Positions 4,738-24,120 of a stretch of 25,022 nt of DNA are shown piece after piece. Each line of letters opens with the position of its first letter. The stretch's first letter is position 1. Source of the stretch: a virus; the IMG/VR virus record IMGVR_UViG_3300020034_000066, positions 1 to 25,022 of that record; one strand, given 5' to 3'. A model generated the notes under the pieces. The model saw only the letters and a list, made by a program, of their open reading frames with translations, did not search any database and was not told the origin of the DNA. The translations under genes were made by a program, and so were the position numbers.

Positions 4738-4771
4738 GATCCAAATTTAAAAAAAGAAAAGGATGATAGTA

Positions 4772-5587
4772 ATGTTTAAATTGATGATTAATCCAGGTCA
4801 CGGCGGTAAAGATTCAGGCGCAGTTTACGGAGAGTTTAACGAGAAAGACTTCGATCTATTATTTTCTTTGCGACTAAGAGACTATCTATTAAGTAAATAT
4901 GCTCTAGATGTAGTTATGACTAGAACTTCTGATGTTACTGTATCTTTAAAAGAATCTGTTGATATGGCTAATAATCAAAATGTAGACTACTTCTTATCTA
5001 TGCATGTTAACGCAGGTGGCGGCAGAGGATTCGAAAGCTTTATCTTTGATGGTGGAAATGTCACACCTGAGACTGCAGTTCATCAAGATGCAATCCATAA
5101 GAGTGTAATGGCAGCTATTGGTACTAAATATGAAGTCGCTGATAGAGGAGAAAAGAAAGCTGATTTTGAGGTATTACGTGAAACTAAAATGGAAGCTGTA
5201 TTATTAGAGAGTTTATTTATCGATAATGATGAAGATCTTCAACTACTAACTAATGATGATTTTGTTCAGGATCTTGTAGTAGGAATTGGCGAGGGTGTAG
5301 CACAAGCATTTTCACTCGAACTTCTCCCTTCTCCAGCACCATTACCAGAAGCTAAATATTTCAGAGTATTCGCTGGAGCTTTCGAAGAGCCACAAAACGC
5401 AGAAGCTAGAATTAAATTGTTAGATGAAAGAGGAATCAATAGCTTTATTGTAGACCACGAAGTAAACGGAGTACTTTTCCACAGAGTTCAAGTTGGAGCA
5501 TTTAAAGAAAAAGCTAATGCGGACCATAAACTACAAGCATTAGTAGATGTAGGCGTTAATGATGGATTTATAGCAGTTGGTTGTTAA
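4772..5587 (+). CDS. N-acetylmuramoyl-L-alanine amidase (Amidase_3) with SPOR domain
   Basis: A 271-residue cell-wall hydrolase that cuts the MurNAc-L-Ala bond. Zinc ligands of the Amidase_3 family are visible: H10 in NPGHGGKDSGA, E24 in NEKDFD, and H78 in SMHVNAG. The catalytic Glu is E146 in AVLLESLF. After a proline-rich linker (LLPSPAPLPEA, ~184-194) comes a C-terminal SPOR domain (~195-271, YFRVFAGAFEEPQNAEARI...), which binds glycan in related proteins. The start at 4772 is preferred over 4763 because AAGGAT then sits at proper spacing. There is no signal peptide, so export would need a holin or virion incorporation. It sits between the terminase and portal genes rather than after the tail genes, which is unusual, and no holin is recognisable next to it. 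Confidence 0.92.
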   Translation: MFKLMINPGHGGKDSGAVYGEFNEKDFDLLFSLRLRDYLLSKYALDVVMTRTSDVTVSLKESVDMANNQNVDYFLSMHVNAGGGRGFESFIFDGGNVTPETAVHQDAIHKSVMAAIGTKYEVADRGEKKADFEVLRETKMEAVLLESLFIDNDEDLQLLTNDDFVQDLVVGIGEGVAQAFSLELLPSPAPLPEAKYFRVFAGAFEEPQNAEARIKLLDERGINSFIVDHEVNGVLFHRVQVGAFKEKANADHKLQALVDVGVNDGFIAVGC

Positions 5588-5611
5588 CAATTGCTAGGAA
5601 TTGATTGTTGC

Positions 5612-5627
5612 AGGAGGTGAAATTATT
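5612..5627 (+). promoter_or_regulatory. Strong ribosome-binding site pointing to an AUU start for the portal
   Basis: AGGAGGTGA (5612-5620) is the only good ribosome-binding site before the portal gene. The in-frame TTG at 5601 lies upstream of it and so cannot use it; its own upstream TAGGA is only one base away. In-frame ATT at 5625 lies seven bases after AGGAGG, the ideal distance. No ATG, GTG or TTG occurs at a usable distance. Confidence 0.5.
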
Positions 5628-6902
5628 CCTAAGTCGGAGTCCCTATTTCAGAAGATTAAGAACAAATTCAATAAAAAAACGTATCCGGGGTTCTCTCCTT
5701 ATATCCAATCGCAACTGTGGTGGCTGAACTCAGCTGTATATTCTCCCGCTCAGTATCGTACATTTGCTGCGGAAGGGTATATGACTAACCCAGTTGTGTA
5801 TAGATGTATCAATCTCATTGCTACAGCTATAGCGGGGATACCTTGGAAGCTCTATCGCCGTGTGGCCGACAATAAAGATATCCATATAGAAAACAGTCCC
5901 GTCTTAGATCTACTAAACCAACCGAATCCACGGATGGGACAGGCCGACTTTTTTACAGACCTTATTTCGTATCTCCAACTAAGTGGCAATACTTACGTCA
6001 GGCGCGTGGGACCCAGTAATGGCGCCCCCAAAGAGCTATACCTTCTGCGCCCTGATCGTATGACTATAAATGAAGCTGAGTTTAATGATCCTTGCTATGA
6101 TGATATCTATCCAGTATATATGTACGAGTGTAATAACCTTAAAGAGCGCATTGATCCTCGGTGGTTGTGGCATGGAAAGCTGTGGAATCCATTGTGTGAT
6201 TTCTATGGCATGTCTCCGCTACAGGCAGCCGGTAAATCTATAGATCAGTTAAACCTCTCGTTGGACTGGAATGTAGCTTTGCTTCAAAATAGTGCTAACC
6301 CAAGTGGAGTACTTACATCTGAAGGCAATCTTACCGATGAGCAGATATCTCGTCTGAAGGAACAATTGGCAGTCAAATACCAAAGCAGTATAAATGCAGG
6401 TAGGCCAATGTTACTCGAGGGCGGGTTAACCTGGGCCCAGATGTCACTTAATCCTAAAGATATGCAGTGGGATTTAGGGGTGAAGAACGCTACTAAGTTT
6501 ATATCTATGGCTCTCGGAGTTGATACATCTCTACTGGGAGATTCTAGTATATCAACTTATAGTAACTTCAAAGATGCTGAGAAGGCCTTCTATACTTCCA
6601 CAGTATTACCAAACATGGATAGGCTACGGGATGATTTCTTGAACGGATGGCTCCTTCCATTATTCCCTAATATGGAGGATTACTACTTTGAATACGACCG
6701 GGATGGCATTGAGGTATTGGGTGAAGATCGCACTATTGTGTGGGATCGTAGTATGGCTGGGTTTGAAGCTGGTCTTATATCTCTTAATGAAGCTCGGGAT
6801 GCGATAGGCTATACCGAAAAGGATGAAACTTCTGCACCTGATGATGTAGAAGTGGAACTTGATTTCGAACAAGATGAAGTAATTGACGAAAAAAAAAAGT
6901 AG
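5625..6902 (+). CDS. Portal protein (HK97-type)
   Basis: The portal forms the dodecameric ring at the capsid vertex through which DNA passes. The ~425-residue protein shows family signatures: MTNPVVYRCINLIATAIAGIPWKLYRR near the N-terminus, then NPRMGQADFFTDLISYLQLSGNTYV, the SPLQAAGKSIDQ region, and LGVDTSLLGDSSISTYSNFKDAEKAFY followed by LNGWLLPLF. The start is placed at ATT 5625 because of the ribosome-binding site; a TTG start at 5601 gives 433 residues. The C-terminus is acidic and ends in K-K-K on a ten-A run directly before UAG. A -1 slip there continues into the MuF frame. It follows the amidase by a short gap and leads the head genes. Confidence 0.95.
   Translation: MPKSESLFQKIKNKFNKKTYPGFSPYIQSQLWWLNSAVYSPAQYRTFAAEGYMTNPVVYRCINLIATAIAGIPWKLYRRVADNKDIHIENSPVLDLLNQPNPRMGQADFFTDLISYLQLSGNTYVRRVGPSNGAPKELYLLRPDRMTINEAEFNDPCYDDIYPVYMYECNNLKERIDPRWLWHGKLWNPLCDFYGMSPLQAAGKSIDQLNLSLDWNVALLQNSANPSGVLTSEGNLTDEQISRLKEQLAVKYQSSINAGRPMLLEGGLTWAQMSLNPKDMQWDLGVKNATKFISMALGVDTSLLGDSSISTYSNFKDAEKAFYTSTVLPNMDRLRDDFLNGWLLPLFPNMEDYYFEYDRDGIEVLGEDRTIVWDRSMAGFEAGLISLNEARDAIGYTEKDETSAPDDVEVELDFEQDEVIDEKKK
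6893..6899 (+). other. Putative -1 frameshift site A AAA AAG at end of portal gene
   Basis: In the portal frame the last codons are GAA AAA AAA AAG followed by TAG. Positions 6893-6899 form the heptamer A AAA AAG, the dnaX/IS-type slippery sequence, inside a run of ten As (6889-6898). A -1 slip puts the ribosome on GTA GCT AAT, the MuF frame, which is open from 6887 to 7657. No strong stimulatory hairpin is obvious; only a 4-bp ACTT/AAGT stem follows. Transcriptional slippage on A10 would give the same mixture. Confidence 0.6.
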
Positions 6903-7657
6903 CTAATGTATTCAACTTACGTAGCAAGTCAGCTAAAGCTAAGTATGTTGATGCTATAGAAGTTCGGCGTAAGAAATGGGATTATAAAGCCAGACGTCGA
7001 GCAGTGCAAGAGTTCAAGACAGAAGAGGCAGCAGTAATAAAAGCTGTAGGCGAAGCTACTCCTAAGACAGCCGAGAAGGCAGCCTTAGGAGCTATTAGCG
7101 CGACAGCATGGCACAAGTTCTATATGTGGCTCTATTCTGGAGTGATGAAAGAATTTGCACTGCAAACGTTTAAAAGCTACCGGGAGGTGAAAGCCAATGA
7201 CGAATTGGATGAAGAGTATCTTACAGAAGCTGAAGAATTTATGGAAGAAACTGTGTCCATGCGAGAAGGGGAAGTACTCCAAACCACCCGCGATCGTCTC
7301 CGGAGAGCCATCCTGGCCGTTTTGGCGTTGGGTGGAGGAAATGAAGAAATTCAAGCGGAAATAGCCAAACTCTATAAACATGATATTCCAATACGGTCCA
7401 GAGCAATAGCACAGACCGAAGTCATTACAGCTGGAAATGCCGGAACAAACTTTGCGGCCCTGACTGTGGGGGCTAATCGTAAAGAGTGGATTGCTGTGAT
7501 GGATAATCGCACTCGCGATAGTCATAGGGAAGTAGATGGGGAAATTAAAAAAATAGAAGAAAGATATTCTAATGGCTTACGTTTCCCAGGTGATCCGGAG
7601 GGTCCAGCAGCTGAAGTTATAAATTGTAGGTGTGTGGAAGCTTATTTATTAACTTAA
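6899..7657 (+). CDS. MuF/SPP1 gp7-like minor head protein, probably made by -1 frameshift from portal
   Basis: The C-terminal ~100 residues carry the Phage_Mu_F signature: AQTEVITAGNAG, W-I-A-V-M-D-N-R-T-R-DSH, DG, the LRFPGDPEGPAAEVINCRC ending. MuF proteins sit in the head near the portal and can be carried with the DNA. The frame has no ATG, GTG or TTG between 6887 and 7004. The GTG at 7004 lacks a ribosome-binding site, while the codons before it read as protein (VFNLRSKSAKAKYVDAIEVRRKKWDYKARRRA). I therefore extend it to the slippery site at the portal stop. The product would be a portal-MuF fusion of ~677 residues. Alternatives are initiation at GTG 7004 (217 residues), a non-canonical start, or a homopolymer sequencing error. 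A terminator follows the stop. Confidence 0.9.
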   Translation, partial: VANVFNLRSKSAKAKYVDAIEVRRKKWDYKARRRAVQEFKTEEAAVIKAVGEATPKTAEKAALGAISATAWHKFYMWLYSGVMKEFALQTFKSYREVKANDELDEEYLTEAEEFMEETVSMREGEVLQTTRDRLRRAILAVLALGGGNEEIQAEIAKLYKHDIPIRSRAIAQTEVITAGNAGTNFAALTVGANRKEWIAVMDNRTRDSHREVDGEIKKIEERYSNGLRFPGDPEGPAAEVINCRCVEAYLLT

Positions 7658-7712: not shown

Positions 7713-7919
7713 ATGTCTAACGTCCCTATTTGGATCAATCAAGGTGCAACTGGTATGTATATCGGAGACGGAGCTACTCTTCATATCTTATCAGGTGCTA
7801 CTATCTGGGCTGCTACAGGAGCCATAATGATAGGTTTTTCTCCAACCGGAGCCACAGGCGCTAGAGGTCATACTGGTCCAACAGGTCCTAGAGGTCACAC
7901 TGGCCCTACTGGTCCTTGA
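7713..7919 (+). CDS. Small collagen-like virion protein (68 residues)
   Basis: The ATG is preceded by AAGGAGG. The N-terminal ~43 residues (NVPIWINQGATGMYIGDGATLHILSGATIW) form a small domain shared with the next gene (NVKIFTNQGGTGMFIERQARLTLTGKTV). The C-terminus is pure Gly-X-Y: GATGARGHTGPTGPRGHTGPTGP, about seven triplets rich in Gly-Pro-Thr. The TGA stop overlaps the AGGAGG of the next gene. It lies among head genes, so it may be a short head fibre or decoration; this is inference from position. No family name can be assigned. The two genes are clearly paralogous at the N-terminus and likely co-translated. Confidence 0.75.
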   Translation: MSNVPIWINQGATGMYIGDGATLHILSGATIWAATGAIMIGFSPTGATGARGHTGPTGPRGHTGPTGP

Positions 7920-7931
7920 GGAGGTATTTAA

Positions 7932-8405
7932 ATGGCGAACGTCAAGATTTTTACCAATCAAGGGGGAACGGGCATGTTTATCGAGCGTCAAGCTCGATTG
8001 ACATTAACGGGTAAAACCGTAGACGGTGTTGGCGGCGTAATTGATGCAACCGACGGTACTATTTATGGACTCCCAGTCGGTCCTACTGGCCCTACAGGAG
8101 CAGCAGCAACGGGTCCGACTGGTCCCACCGGAGCCACGGGGCCTACAGCCGTAATTGCTCCAGGCTCTATTACACGAACTCAATTAGCTATGTTTACAGC
8201 TCAAGGTATCACTGGAACTGGTGCTCCTATAGCCACTCCTCATACTTTGGGTGTAGATCCTACTCCAGCTAATGTATTTTTTACCATTACTAAATACGAC
8301 GCATTTAGTAATCCTGAATTCGTAGGGCTGGCTACTGATGCTAGTGATATCACGGTTCAGGTAGAAGCGGGCATTGTGTATTCAATTATCGCATTTGCTC
8401 CTTAG
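7932..8405 (+). CDS. Collagen-like virion protein with C-terminal beta domain
   Basis: A 157-residue protein with an AGGAGG site eight bases upstream. The N-terminal domain (~1-48) is homologous to the preceding 68-residue protein. A collagen-like segment follows at ~50-74 ([24 protein letters not shown], with an A-A interruption). The C-terminal ~80 residues are rich in beta-strand-forming residues (FFTITKYDAFSNPEFVGLATDASDITVQVEAGIVYSIIAFAP). The layout anchor-collagen-globule suggests a trimeric fibre. Its place between MuF and the prohead protease suggests capsid attachment, which I infer and cannot show. Gly-X-Thr triplets are potential O-glycosylation sites, as known for BclA-type spore proteins. 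Confidence 0.8.
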   Translation: MANVKIFTNQGGTGMFIERQARLTLTGKTVDGVGGVIDATDGTIYGLPVGPTGPTGAAATGPTGPTGATGPTAVIAPGSITRTQLAMFTAQGITGTGAPIATPHTLGVDPTPANVFFTITKYDAFSNPEFVGLATDASDITVQVEAGIVYSIIAFAP

Positions 8406-15087: not shown

Positions 15088-15429
15088 ATGGCTAATAAAC
15101 ATAGAGGCGAAGTCGCCCTACAATTGGACAAGAAAAGGAAATTAAAATTTAACACCCATGCTCTCGTAGAGCTCGAAGATGCATTGGGAATGCCTTTTTC
15201 TAAATTAAACGAAGAAACTATAGGCTTTGGGGCCATTGCAAAAATGTTTTGGGCGTCTCTACTTCACGAAATTCCTGATTTAACGCTTCCAGAAGCCCAT
15301 ATGCTAATGGATCTAGCACCGTTTGCCACTATATCAGAAAAGGTAATGGAGGCATTTTCATTAGCTTTCCCAGAAGCTAATGAGGAAAAAAAGGAAAAAG
15401 TAGTGGAGATTGGAGCTGGGAAGAGCTAA
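15088..15429 (+). CDS. Tail assembly chaperone, short form (gpG-like)
   Basis: A 113-residue protein. The fold and order suit the short tail-assembly chaperone: LKFNTHALVELEDALGMPFSKLNEETIGFGAIAKMFWASLLHEIPDLTLPEAHMLMD. It binds the tape measure during tail polymerisation. Near its end GAA AAA AAG GAA contains A AAA AAG at 15387-15393, after which the normal frame continues KEKVVEIGAGKS-stop. The alternative -1 frame yields the long chaperone. It precedes the tape measure gene, the canonical place. Confidence 0.9.
   Translation: MANKHRGEVALQLDKKRKLKFNTHALVELEDALGMPFSKLNEETIGFGAIAKMFWASLLHEIPDLTLPEAHMLMDLAPFATISEKVMEAFSLAFPEANEEKKEKVVEIGAGKS
15387..15393 (+). other. Programmed -1 frameshift site A AAA AAG in tail chaperone gene
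   Basis: The heptamer is in frame (A, AAA, AAG). A -1 slip gives GGA AAA AGT AGT GGA GAT TGG and continues open to 15698. Frameshifting at this position is conserved across tailed phages (lambda G/GT and equivalents). The same heptamer occurs at the portal/MuF junction. Confidence 0.85.
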
Positions 15430-15698
15430 AAAAGCTAGCTTTCGGGCCACTGCATTTATTGCCCAATCAATTTTGGGAGCTAACTCCACGCGAAGTTTTT
15501 TCTTTGGCTGAAGGTTATCAATCACGTCATGATAGGCAGATGGAAATTACCGCGTGGCATGCTGCTAATTTGATGAATATACACCTCAAAAAGAAAGTTA
15601 CAGCGAAAAAGTTATTAGGTAAGGACCACGGTGTTACCATGGCGGATCGCGAGCGGGAATTTGCTAAGTTGAAACGAGCTTTAGCAGAAAGGGGGTAA
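15393..15698 (+). CDS. Tail assembly chaperone, frameshifted extension (GT-like)
   Basis: This frame has no credible start: the only candidate, TTG at 15459, lacks a ribosome-binding site. The codons upstream already encode the family's beginning, GDWSWEELKKLAFGPLHLLPNQFWELTPREVFSLAEGYQ. It is therefore read as a C-terminal extension of the upstream gene after a -1 slip, giving ~203 residues in total (102 + 101). W-x-x-L---LG--P-FW-LTP-E is typical of second-frame chaperones of siphoviruses. The basic tail (KKKVTAKKLLGK...REFAKLKRALAERG) contacts the tape measure in related systems. Confidence 0.88.
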   Translation, partial: GKSSGDWSWEELKKLAFGPLHLLPNQFWELTPREVFSLAEGYQSRHDRQMEITAWHAANLMNIHLKKKVTAKKLLGKDHGVTMADREREFAKLKRALAERG

Positions 15699-20581: not shown

Positions 20582-21781
20582 GTGGCTGGTCTATTCAATT
20601 CTTTCCCATATGACGACTACGCAATGACAGAAAATGATTGGAAATTAATGTTCAGCTGGGTTCGTACGTCTGGTATTTTGGCTGCTACTACCACACTGGA
20701 CCCAGTTGGAGAATCTGCCGTTGCTGCGGATACCGCAATGACAATTCAGATTTATCCTGGGGAAGCTTGGATTGAAGGCTTTTATTTCTATTACATTGAA
20801 GACCCAGCCGATCCAGGAAATATTACCTTTACAATCTCTAATAATGTTTCAGGGTTCCCACGGATTGATTTGGTGGTCATTCGACTAGATTTAACTAACA
20901 ATACTACTACTTATGTTGTACTGGAAGGTACTCCCGCCGCTTCCCCAGTTCCTCCTGTAGTACAGCAGGATGATCTGATTTGGGAGTTACCTATAGCTGA
21001 AATTGCAGTAGCGAATGGAGCCACTGTAATTAATCCCGGAGATATTACGGATGTACGTGTACGCTCTGTTCAAGCAGGGGCTGGATCATCACCTTTAATC
21101 GCCGGTACAAATATCACTTTGACCGCAACCGGACCTAGTGGTAATTTCATTTTAATAGATTCGGCAGGGGCCACAGGTATAACAGGGGCCACTGGAGCTA
21201 CTGGACCTTCAGGTGGACCAGCGGGGCCTACAGGAGCAACGGGCGCAACAGGACAAACTGGATCTACAGGTCCGCAAGGGCCACCAGGACCTCCCAATGG
21301 CCCAACGGGTCCAAGCGGTCCAACGGGAGCTACCGGTCCTTCAGGACCAGCCGGCTCTGGAGGATCTGAAGGTTATATTTGTATAGTCACTAGCTCTGGT
21401 GATCAAACTGTTGCGGCTACTGCGACAGCTGCAATCATCTTTGATGTGGAAGAAACTGACCCACAGTTTATGCATAATCCCGGATCTCCCACACGGATAA
21501 CCATTCTAAAAACTGGAGTTTACTTTGTTGGCTTCAATGTATTATCAGGTCAAGATTCATTCAACTGGTTTGTTCGAGTAAATGGTACCACTAATATCGT
21601 ATCCAGTGATTATTCACCAAGTAATGCTAGTCGAGTTAGAGCCTTTACTGCTGGGGATTATCTAGAGGTTATGGCTCATAATACTCATCCGTCGTCACCT
21701 GGAGATGTACTGCAACTACCATCTTACTCACCGATTTTCGAGGTATTTAAAATAGATAGCGAGATCCCATGTCCATGTTAA
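20582..21781 (+). CDS. Collagen-stalk tail fibre with C1q/TNF-like tip
   Basis: About 399 residues. The GTG at 20582 follows AAGAGGTGG; earlier in-frame codons lie inside the terminator. The N-terminal ~170 residues ([28 protein letters not shown]..., [41 protein letters not shown]) match the virion-anchoring domain common in fibres and baseplate proteins of Gram-positive phages. Residues ~196-262 are ~21 Gly-X-Y triplets with two interruptions, many Gly-X-Thr. The C-terminal ~130 residues ([30 protein letters not shown]) look like the C1q/TNF jelly roll that caps BclA-type collagens. This is probably the receptor-binding fibre. It overlaps the first glycosyltransferase gene by 13 bases. Confidence 0.85.
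21167..21364 (+). repeat. Collagen-like Gly-X-Y triplet repeat region
   Basis: About 21 nine-base units encode Gly-Ala-Thr, Gly-Pro-Thr, Gly-Pro-Ser and related triplets, with interruptions at G-G-P and P-N-G. Thr is the commonest third residue. Such repeats are prone to slippage and recombination, and Thr sites are those glycosylated in bacterial collagen-like proteins such as BclA (established for that protein, inferred here). Confidence 0.85.
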
Positions 21782-22521
21782 TGTCCATTATTATCAGTTC
21801 TTATAAAAGACCGCAACTTTTATATCATGGTCTATGCTCTTTAAATAGACAAAAATTTGATAGAGACCAAGTAGAAATTCTAGTTCTAAACGATGGAATT
21901 CCTGATGGAACTGAGGAAATAGTATGTCTCTTTAGAGATACGTTGCCAGTTAAATATATATTTACGGGAGAACGTAATTTGAATGGACAGGAAATTTATC
22001 GTTCTGGAGGCTTTGCATATAACCAAGGTGTGAGGGAAGCAAAAGGGGAGTATATCACCTTGTCTTGCGCTGAAATGTATCACACCGGGGAAACGATTGC
22101 CTCTATGCTAGAGCAGTTAGAACCTAATTCCTTAGTAATACCGACGGGCCGGGACGATCTGGATGGGAGTTATTTATCCGCTCTATCAGGGAATCCAGAG
22201 CCAGATTTGCCAGCAGGTAATCTCAATATGGAATTACCTTTTTTTATGGCTATTCCTCGTCATATCTATGTAGAAATAGGCGGCTTTGATGAAGATTTCA
22301 TAGGTCAGAGTTATGAAGATAATGATCTCATGGAGCGGCTTCTAAGTTCTGGCCTAAAATTCAGGCCTATTTCAGAAACTGTTGTACATTTATACCACAG
22401 GCGCTGGTATGATTTTGATCCATCGCCGAAGAGGTTCGAGATGAAACAATACAATTACAACATTTACATGAAAAAACGGGGGTCTATTAAACGCAATGAG
22501 AATTTATATAACTGGAATTAA
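21769..22521 (+). CDS. GT2-family glycosyltransferase
   Basis: A 250-residue GT-A fold enzyme. [23 protein letters not shown] and [18 protein letters not shown] form the nucleotide-sugar half. [27 protein letters not shown] is where the metal-binding D-x-D is expected, but here it reads S-C-A-E (residues 99-102). The second half has [43 protein letters not shown], as in galactosyltransferase-like GT2 enzymes (E-D-N-D and H-x-x-H). The gene starts inside the collagen-fibre gene and overlaps the next gene by 26 bases, implying co-translation. Substrate unknown. It likely modifies virion proteins or host surface sugars. Confidence 0.85.
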
Positions 22522-23440
22522 GGGTTTTATAGCTACACATCTTAAACGTGAATTAGAAGATCATGGACACACTGTGGGGGGTGGCAATCTCCCTGAGGTC
22601 AATTATTGGCATAAAGGGGTGGCTCACAGAGAATTCAATAGATTTAAACCGGACCTAGTCGTCCATAATGCTGCACAAGTGGGACGACTATTTGGCGAGG
22701 ATAACATAAAGTTCACCATTGATAGCAATGCCCTAATGACAACTCGTATAGCTCAAGCTGCTGCAGAAAGAGGATGTCGTTTATGCTACATTTCTACATC
22801 AGAAGTATATGGTGATCAAGGCGAAACAATGTGCGATGAATCTACTCCACTTAAGTTGTCCCACAATTTGTATGGATTATCCAAAAAGTGGGGGGAAGAA
22901 ACGTGTTTGCTATATCATCCAACCAACCTACAGATTGTGCGCCCTTCTATGCCATACGGGACCGGAGTTCCAGCTGGAAATGGGAGGGCAGCTATTCTAA
23001 ATTTCGTATACAATGCGCTCCATAACACGCCATTAAACGTGCATAAAAATGCTGAACGCTCCAATATTTGGATAGATGATTTGATCCGTAGTTTTAGATC
23101 TATCCTTGAAAATGGAGAGGTTATAACCCAAGGGACAAGCGATTACTATGAAGGGCGTGGGATCTATAATCTCGGCAGAAATGATGATGCTAGAAGCATG
23201 GAGGAAATCGCTGTTTTAGCTTGTGATTTAGCGGGCGCTCCTCGCTCTTTAATAAATTTAGTGGAAGCTCCACCTAACCAAACAAAGATAAAAAGACTTT
23301 GCTGTGAGAAAGTTCGCCAATTAGCCGGAGCTCCAACCACATCTTTAGAGGAAGGCATGGTGAAAATATTACAATACTACATGAACGAAAAGTCATTGCA
23401 GGGATGGCCACAATCCCAGGCCGCGAAGCTGAGTGTATAG
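22496..23440 (+). CDS. NAD-dependent epimerase/dehydratase (extended SDR)
   Basis: A 314-residue nucleotide-sugar enzyme. [16 protein letters not shown] carries a G-x-x-G-F-I-A NAD-binding motif (residues 7-13). HNAAQVG, YISTSEVYGD and the catalytic Y126-x-x-x-K130 (NLYGLSKKWGEE) are typical of UDP-glucose 4-epimerase/sugar dehydratase families, followed by IVRPSMPYGTG and NIWIDDLIRSF. The first glycine motif is slightly shortened (GIKGFIA for GxxGxxG). It would supply an activated sugar for the glycosyltransferases that flank it. It overlaps both neighbours by 26 and 37 bases with no separate ribosome-binding sites. Confidence 0.88.
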   Translation: MRIYITGIKGFIATHLKRELEDHGHTVGGGNLPEVNYWHKGVAHREFNRFKPDLVVHNAAQVGRLFGEDNIKFTIDSNALMTTRIAQAAAERGCRLCYISTSEVYGDQGETMCDESTPLKLSHNLYGLSKKWGEETCLLYHPTNLQIVRPSMPYGTGVPAGNGRAAILNFVYNALHNTPLNVHKNAERSNIWIDDLIRSFRSILENGEVITQGTSDYYEGRGIYNLGRNDDARSMEEIAVLACDLAGAPRSLINLVEAPPNQTKIKRLCCEKVRQLAGAPTTSLEEGMVKILQYYMNEKSLQGWPQSQAAKLSV

Positions 23441-24120
23441 ATGCAATAAACAGCATTATTGATCAGGTAGATCATCTCTTTGTTTATCAGAACGGGTACA
23501 AGAATTTCAACTTGTTAAAAAAAGCCAAAATTACATACTATTCGAGCCTAGATACCGGGTCTGATATGGGGGATGCAGGCAAGTTTTATCGTGCCTGCAA
23601 CCAACCTGAAGATACATTCTACTTCAGTTTAGACGACGATCTTATTTATCCTCCGGATTATGTAAACTACTCACTCTCTTGGCTTAAGAAATTCCCAGCT
23701 GTGGCTCATCATGGCCGTAGCCTTAGGCAGGGAGCTACAGATTATTGGAACGATACCATATTAGCCTGCCGCATATTAGGAGAAGTTGCTCAGCCCACTC
23801 GTGTTCAATTTGCCGGGACTGGAACTCTATGTATAGACACCAGCAAGGTTAAGCTATGTTACGAGGACTTCAAAACCCCTAATATGGCTGACGTATGGGC
23901 AGGAAAGCGATTACAAGAACAAGGGATTCAAGCAATAGTCCCTCCACATGCTGAAGGATGGGCTGTGTTAAATCCTCTTCAAAAAGCGGATGAAACTATC
24001 TGGTATACCAACACTTATGATAACGAGAAGAGAAGACTTCAAAATGAAATATTAGTGGGGCGGCAGCCACCTTTGCGCTCCGACCATTCAGACCCATTTG
24101 GTAGAATTATGGCGGAGTAA
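23404..24120 (+). CDS. Glycosyltransferase (GT-A type, D-D-D motif)
   Basis: A 238-residue enzyme. The N-terminus MATIPGREAECIDAINSIIDQVDHLFVYQNGY resembles GT2-like enzymes beginning MATIPxR. The metal/nucleotide-binding triad is D77-D78-D79 in YFSLDDDLIYPPDYV. Later parts are HHGRSLRQGATDYW, FAGTGTLCIDTS and MADVWAGKRLQEQGIQAIVPP, where an acidic acceptor-site D is expected. It starts 37 bases inside the epimerase gene, so is probably coupled. It is followed by a decayed gene remnant and a terminator, ending the cassette. Confidence 0.82.
   Translation: MATIPGREAECIDAINSIIDQVDHLFVYQNGYKNFNLLKKAKITYYSSLDTGSDMGDAGKFYRACNQPEDTFYFSLDDDLIYPPDYVNYSLSWLKKFPAVAHHGRSLRQGATDYWNDTILACRILGEVAQPTRVQFAGTGTLCIDTSKVKLCYEDFKTPNMADVWAGKRLQEQGIQAIVPPHAEGWAVLNPLQKADETIWYTNTYDNEKRRLQNEILVGRQPPLRSDHSDPFGRIMAE

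Follow-up and report, generated by a model that had tools for sequence, protein, structure and literature searches.

A predicted dnaX-type frameshift site at the portal/MuF junction of a phage genome, and equivalent sites of both polarities in its relatives

How does a phage make a MuF protein from an open reading frame that has no start codon where one is needed? MuF proteins occur in few copies inside phage heads, beside the portal, and many temperate phages carry toxins fused to them. In the 25,022-nucleotide stretch of viral DNA analyzed here (hereafter the window; positions 1 to 25,022 of IMG/VR record IMGVR_UViG_3300020034_000066), a portal frame stops within a few bases of a homopolymer, and a MuF frame runs on from the same place in the -1 phase. 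A preliminary description of this locus interpreted the arrangement as a frameshift that joins the two genes; its observation at the junction is confirmed, and its interpretation as a whole is partly supported. The explanation that we consider likely is a programmed -1 site that would give both the portal alone and a portal-MuF fusion from one start. Judged from the sequences of the window and its relatives, the slip in the window is probably real.

The portal frame ends with GAC GAA AAA AAA AAG TAG, the stop occupying positions 6900-6902. As the preliminary description stated, the heptamer A AAA AAG stands in the portal frame, abuts the stop and falls within ten As, which form the sole A or T run longer than 8 in all 25,022 bases of the window. 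The site follows the X XXY YYZ pattern in the zero frame and lies inside the portal/MuF overlap. The MuF frame is -1 to the portal and open for 256 codons (6887-7654, stop at 7655-7657), 252 of which follow the slip and are stop-free. Its first ATG, GTG or TTG is GTG 7004, and no Shine-Dalgarno-like sequence precedes that codon in the window sequence, again as originally described; ATG 6906 belongs to the portal frame and reaches a TAG after 17 codons. The upstream frame matches Phage_portal in Pfam (PF04860; 1.7e-71, 241.5 bits against a cut-off of 39.1), the -1 frame matches Phage_Mu_F (PF04233, MuF / SPP1 gp7; 4.4e-14, 53.6 bits against a cut-off of 29.6), and the two match the two halves of the fused profile phrog_2662 in order (44-407 and 464-705 of 717). 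The MuF frame is therefore open, homologous and start-less, as programmed -1 shifting requires, and there is no ordinary route for MuF to start by itself in the window. The coordinates are collected in the table.

Features of the portal/MuF junction and of the tail chaperone slip site in the window
Feature	Coordinates	Strand	Basis and remarks
Portal Shine-Dalgarno AGGAGGTG	5612-5619	+	sequence read; in-frame TTG 5601 sits upstream
Portal open frame (0 frame)	5601-6902	+	ORF listing; Pfam Phage_portal; phrog_2662 positions 44-407
MuF open frame (-1)	6887-7657	+	ORF listing; Pfam Phage_Mu_F; post-slip entry at codon GTA 6899
A10 run	6889-6898	+	exactly ten As; sequence count
Slippery heptamer A AAA AAG	6893-6899	+	portal frame, abutting TAG; sequence read
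Tail chaperone slip site A AAA AAG (G/GT type)	15387-15393	+	in frame; -1 extension 15393-15698

Behind the portal Shine-Dalgarno sequence there is no ATG, GTG or TTG that is both near and in frame (window 5601-5630), and the portal probably starts at ATT, at position 5622 or 5625, behind the strong AGGAGGTG. Counted from ATT 5625, the predicted portal-MuF fusion has 677 residues, matching the approximately 677 first estimated. Several neighboring genes are worth recording. An N-acetylmuramoyl-L-alanine amidase with a SPOR domain (4763-5587) follows the large terminase and precedes the portal. Collagen-like G-x-T repeats are present in two small genes that separate MuF from the protease (7713-7919 and 7932-8405) and in a gene at the tail end (21070-21400). 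After the tail genes, positions 21769-24120 hold a glycosyltransferase-like gene, a sugar-nucleotide epimerase-like gene and a third gene, their translations judged by eye.

Several hundred related loci were collected, among them 69 genes in 31 clusters (clustered at 80% portal identity) with an adjacent and well-matched portal and MuF. Matches in the genome collection were alphaproteobacterial portals only and were left out of the junction analysis, and relatives with separate genes (the OVERLAP+1 class and most others of OVERLAP-1) were set aside, nearly all of them having start codons of their own. Four of the 31 clusters (the window, L114, L118 and L138) require a -1 shift into a start-less MuF, and in each of them the short overlap contains a homopolymeric heptamer in frame (A10 for the window, T9 for L114, T7 for L118 and A9 for L138). 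The junction reads aaT TTT TTT TTA aag gtc TGA in L114, cgT TTT TTT acg gta atg TAA in L118 and its companions L119 and L120, and gct aaA AAA AAA cta aaa acc TAA in L138. In each case the zero frame of the portal is closed by a stop and MuF, intact and lacking a start, continues in the -1 frame; the two halves match the same Pfam families as the portal and MuF of the window. The heptamers of these relatives are dissimilar, and their location and shift direction are identical. The preliminary description had suggested that relatives be aligned for conservation of the A-run and of the reading-frame offset. Neither is kept in itself; the recurring element is a slippery heptamer, located at the junction and set in a run of As or of Ts.

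The L118 lineage is informative about sequencing error. Its run is seven Ts, equal to that of its fused relative L134, and the offset is due to about four additional bases just 3' of the run. L118 and L120 show 54 differences in 5,078 positions, with zero gaps and, in the comparison of synonymous changes, zero differences within MuF; both keep T7 and the -1 layout, which recurs in three metagenomes (L119 being the third assembly). Because the 4-nt insertion lies outside the run and the layout recurs in three metagenomes, the L118 offset is not a homopolymer error.

Equivalent sites are also found in relatives of the opposite polarity, where portal and MuF share one open frame. In the portal tree, the clade of Geobacillus phage GBK2 and Bacillus phage Silence (support 95/95) has a T-run heptamer at the junction in 11 of 11 rows; nine of these are continuous fusion ORFs, and two (L118 and L114) have the opposite polarity. 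Both polarities are thus present among homologues, with fusion and slip site together in GBK2, Silence, L115, L123, L134, L193, L126 and L287 and the shifted form in the window, L114, L118 and L138, and the portal tree of all slip rows calls for at least four polarity changes. The GBK2 junction, aat ttt ttt tta aac gtt aag, reads K R stop in the -1 frame, and that of Silence, agt ttt ttt ttg acc aat aaa, reads D Q stop; elsewhere among the fused forms the -1 stop is immediate (L115, L134, L123), after two codons (L113, L127, L193) or after four (L126). A slip in these fused ORFs, with a -1 stop so near, would therefore shorten the fusion to a plain portal. The nearness of the stop is in itself a weak argument for a slip site, given that a -1 stop lies within four codons at 40% of other codons too. 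An AlphaFold2 model of the L134 portal-MuF, with a mean pLDDT of 43.5, hints that the site is located in coil between the portal and MuF helices. The slip cassette at the junction occurs in both polarities, as has been reported for dnaX, the slip itself being predicted.

The heptamers are more frequent at the junction than their rate elsewhere in the same genes would produce. An in-frame A6N or T6N heptamer was present at 13 of the 31 junctions, compared with about 2.6 expected (from 29 in 19,497 codons elsewhere), an excess with a Poisson probability of ~3e-6 when relatedness is ignored. Non-homopolymer heptamers, namely CCCTTTT in L271 and L292 and GGGTTTG in L116, were left uncounted, chance matches being likelier for them. 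Codon usage points the same way: in 12 fused members the Phe codons of the site are all TTT, as compared to 194/283 TTT and 89/283 TTC elsewhere, and the codon preceding the site ends in T in 11 of the 12, a combined pattern with a naive log10 probability of -9.6, relatedness again ignored. When nine members are aligned by codon, the two Phe columns at the junction are TTT in 8/8 and 9/9 sequences; among the 12 other conserved Phe columns, only two are equally pure. Frame breaks occur at 4 of 13 homopolymer heptamers at the junction and at 0 of 29 outside it (p ~0.006), a contrast weakened by the longer runs at the junction. Throughout the portal and MuF domains of the 69 genes, a single frame break occurs, at the C-terminus of the L017 MuF; the remaining flagged stops sit upstream of a ribosome-binding site or start. 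The slip site is accordingly kept beyond amino-acid needs in the GBK2/Silence clade (11/11 rows, TTT codon test), and this fails in the small clade of the window, where L111 is without the heptamer. Many fused relatives outside the GBK2 clade likewise have no slip site, and the continuous fusion of Faecalibacterium phage Roos contains no slippery heptamer at all.

A different kind of frame break was noticed at L017 (4885-4990) and at L272 and L188, of the same portal-MuF type. In Parageobacillus phage JGon-2020a, the MuF frame is lost close to the C-terminus, at CCC AGG TGA; shifting by +1 at this point would bring back the conserved PGDP...CRC end, and the MuF frame of an Anoxybacillus plasmid phage likewise appears to end early at the same C-terminal place.

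The -1 reading of the window has several rivals. It is very unlikely that MuF is translated independently, from GTG 7004 or by re-initiation past the portal stop. GTG 7004 is in frame and the Phage_Mu_F match proper lies farther downstream, but the codon is without a Shine-Dalgarno sequence and homology to fused portal-MuF proteins begins upstream of it: the alignment to the fused proteins of GBK2 and Silence crosses the junction, and the match to L111, the best MuF relative, has 47% identity beginning at residue 16 of the -1 frame, a position 24 residues ahead of GTG 7004. Relatives with truly separate portal and MuF genes have overlapping ATG or GTG starts in nearly all cases (L347, of +1 layout, has no MuF start codon before the match), and the one ATG at hand, at 6906, is in the portal frame with its TAG 17 codons on. 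A sequencing error in the homopolymer, for its part, would mean that the true run is 11 (or 8) As and that portal and MuF form a single unbroken gene, as they do in GBK2 and Silence. Among relatives, no layout is more common than continuous fusion, the A10 is the most error-prone run in the window, and either corrected length gives an uninterrupted VIDEKK(K)VANVF; the preliminary description also named nine As as a length that would yield one continuous gene, which was wrong, since 8 or 11 restore the frame and nine does not. A one-base error is possible for the offsets of the window, L114 and L138. We nevertheless judge an error in the window unlikely, as the -1 layout is found in three other lineages, one of them in three metagenomes with an indel outside the run. 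Even a run of 11 As would keep dual output with the polarity reversed: A AAA AAA would still stand in frame and the -1 frame would reach a stop two codons on, so that the two-product property survives a one-A undercount and only polarity depends on it. No near-identical contig was found in the viral collection (the record's own neighbors possibly fall outside that search), and the exact 23-mer beside the junction was absent from the rest of the collection; the A10 is known from one record.

Decay offers another account, in which a real indel in the A-run severed MuF from the portal and MuF is being lost. In the phages whose portals are closest to that of the window (L191, L351 and L354), no MuF follows immediately after the portal, and the L111 fusion has no heptamer; this clade can therefore do without MuF and the slip site, and the window may have suffered a disabling indel recently. 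We consider decay quite unlikely, however: the 252 post-slip MuF codons are stop-free, 47% identical to L111 and carry conserved motifs, the break falls exactly on a highly slippery heptamer beside a stop, and the layout recurs in other lineages. Since equivalent sites persist in relatives, the best reading is the one first proposed, in which a -1 shift connects portal and MuF. How the shift is made is a separate matter. Transcriptional slippage, with RNA polymerase adding one A or dropping two at the A10, overlaps the -1 reading and rivals it in mechanism only; we regard it as a serious possibility at ten As, though short of probable. The main recoding review describes slippage at bacterial A/T runs of nine (PMC5009743), and an A11 run in Citrobacter rodentium tssM slips at 20-25%, both forms being needed (PMC4256274). 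Transcriptional slippage sites have A/T runs of about nine or more, a length that the A10 of the window reaches, and runs of 9-10 are present in the window, L114, L138, GBK2 and Silence; the runs of L118, L134 and L126, however, are of only seven Ts and fall below that length. Ribosomal slipping and +1 A transcriptional slippage would both yield DEKKKVANVF in the window, and thus detection of the KKKVANVF peptide cannot separate them.

Ribosomal -1 slipping is the most likely mechanism in the window, as read from the sequence, and is favored because the X XXY YYZ phase is maintained at the sites, the heptamer is very slippery, the tail chaperone has the same heptamer, and some members have runs of only seven bases. 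In bacteria, A AAA AAG ranks with the slipperiest heptamers (PMC4066793), and it is the one used by E. coli dnaX (PMC5009743). Its presence in frame at the tail chaperone, which the preliminary description had also pointed out, supports its use by the same phage. The statement that no strong stimulatory structure is visible was likewise borne out: no clear hairpin was found downstream of the window slip site (60 nt fold, z = -1.4), nor a Shine-Dalgarno-like stimulator upstream of it. Across members, neither a common hairpin nor a common Shine-Dalgarno-like stimulator was found; L114 has a hairpin (z -4.2) and a Shine-Dalgarno-like GGAGGGGGTGAGGGG upstream, L134 has a hairpin (z -2.7), and the other members have nothing.

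If the programmed -1 site operates as proposed, the zero-frame product would be the portal alone, of about 48.6 kDa, ending at the stop directly after the heptamer. A fraction of ribosomes slipping at A AAA AAG would make the rarer product, a portal-MuF fusion of about 77.0 kDa, and RNA polymerase slippage (+1 A) at the ten As may contribute or even dominate. We infer that the slip occurs, and with it a rate and a stoichiometric role: a minority of portal-ring subunits would carry MuF on their C-terminal, capsid-interior side, and the fused MuF would take the place of a separate MuF protein such as SPP1 gp7, in a set ratio on the portal subunits. On a broader scale, we lean modestly toward the view that a conserved dnaX-like slip cassette sets the share of MuF-bearing portals in a broad group of tailed phages, with indels flipping its polarity and both products kept, and with a separate origin in Brevibacillus phage Emery. 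Were this so, the isolated phages GBK2 and Silence, annotated with a single fusion, would make, beside full-length proteins of 77.6 and 79.1 kDa, a truncated portal of ~48-49 kDa, at about 48.2 and 49.1 kDa with the predicted ends ...SNFF(L/F)KR and ...SSFF(L/F)DQ, and annotation would be missing the second protein of such single 'portal' fusion genes. If frameshifting tags some members of an otherwise uniform set of portal subunits, this would explain how MuF copy number is controlled in these phages, and would amount to a deliberate asymmetry in the portal ring.

The preliminary description held that frameshifted portal-MuF proteins are not a textbook case. That stands, although an unverified precedent is in print for phage Emery (PMC4168068) and continuous fusions are known (PMC7302621). 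The authors of the Emery genome proposed that slippage in a 'head morphogenesis' gene gives a second product, with forms of 58.9 and 82.5 kDa, as a prediction only (PMC4168068). In its sequence (KC595516), gp4/gp5 reads cgT TTT TTA atg ccg TAA with MuF in the -1 frame (3.3e-12). As in the window, a -1 slip site (U UUU UUA) near the zero-frame stop joins a head protein, here of 520 aa, to MuF; unlike in the window, the 520-aa part is named 'head morphogenesis' and is not detectably related to the window's portal family, its match to the T4 portal (4.8e-4) being weak and sub-threshold. Emery gp4 (L428 3171-5350), annotated as a 'head morphogenesis protein', may be an unrecognized divergent portal, with MuF as its -1 extension. 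Besides Emery, the accessible literature, mostly outside subscription journals, yielded no portal-MuF frameshift, an absence that is not proof; the word 'portal' is absent from the first 300,000 of the 475,107 characters of the main recoding review (PMC5009743).

Continuous portal-MuF fusions, as in Microbacterium phages EA3/EA5/EA8/EB (PMC7302621), GBK2, Silence and the profile phrog_2662, have the same two domains in the same order as the window but in one open frame, and no description of a programmed second product for them was found in the accessible literature. Phage SPP1 has a portal (gp6) and a MuF (gp7) as well, but from two genes with their own ribosome-binding sites and no covalent fusion; gp7 binds gp6 and is taken up into the procapsid in few copies; assembly proceeds without it, yet only ~25% of gp7-less virions are infectious (PMC6316719). 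Lambda G/GT also makes a minority fusion by a -1 slip, and the chaperone of the window carries such a site with the heptamer of the portal junction, though these are tail assembly chaperones and other genes than portal and MuF. The A11 run of C. rodentium tssM is another long A-run near a stop with two length variants, both needed there (PMC4256274), but its slippage has been shown to be transcriptional and the gene is one of secretion. A parallel to both polarities is dnaX (tau/gamma), where slipping at A AAA AAG gives two products with a common N-terminal part. The recoding review describes both polarities among bacteria, in that slipping produces the short form in E. coli and, it seems, the long form in a minority of bacteria; in Thermus the slippage is transcriptional (PMC5009743). 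In contrast to the window, dnaX is another gene with another function, and that of E. coli has defined stimulators, none of which were found in the window. Portal-MuF fusions, programmed frameshifting of the dnaX type and the Emery prediction are all known; the addition proposed here is dnaX-type frameshifting, as predicted from sequence, at the portal/MuF junction.
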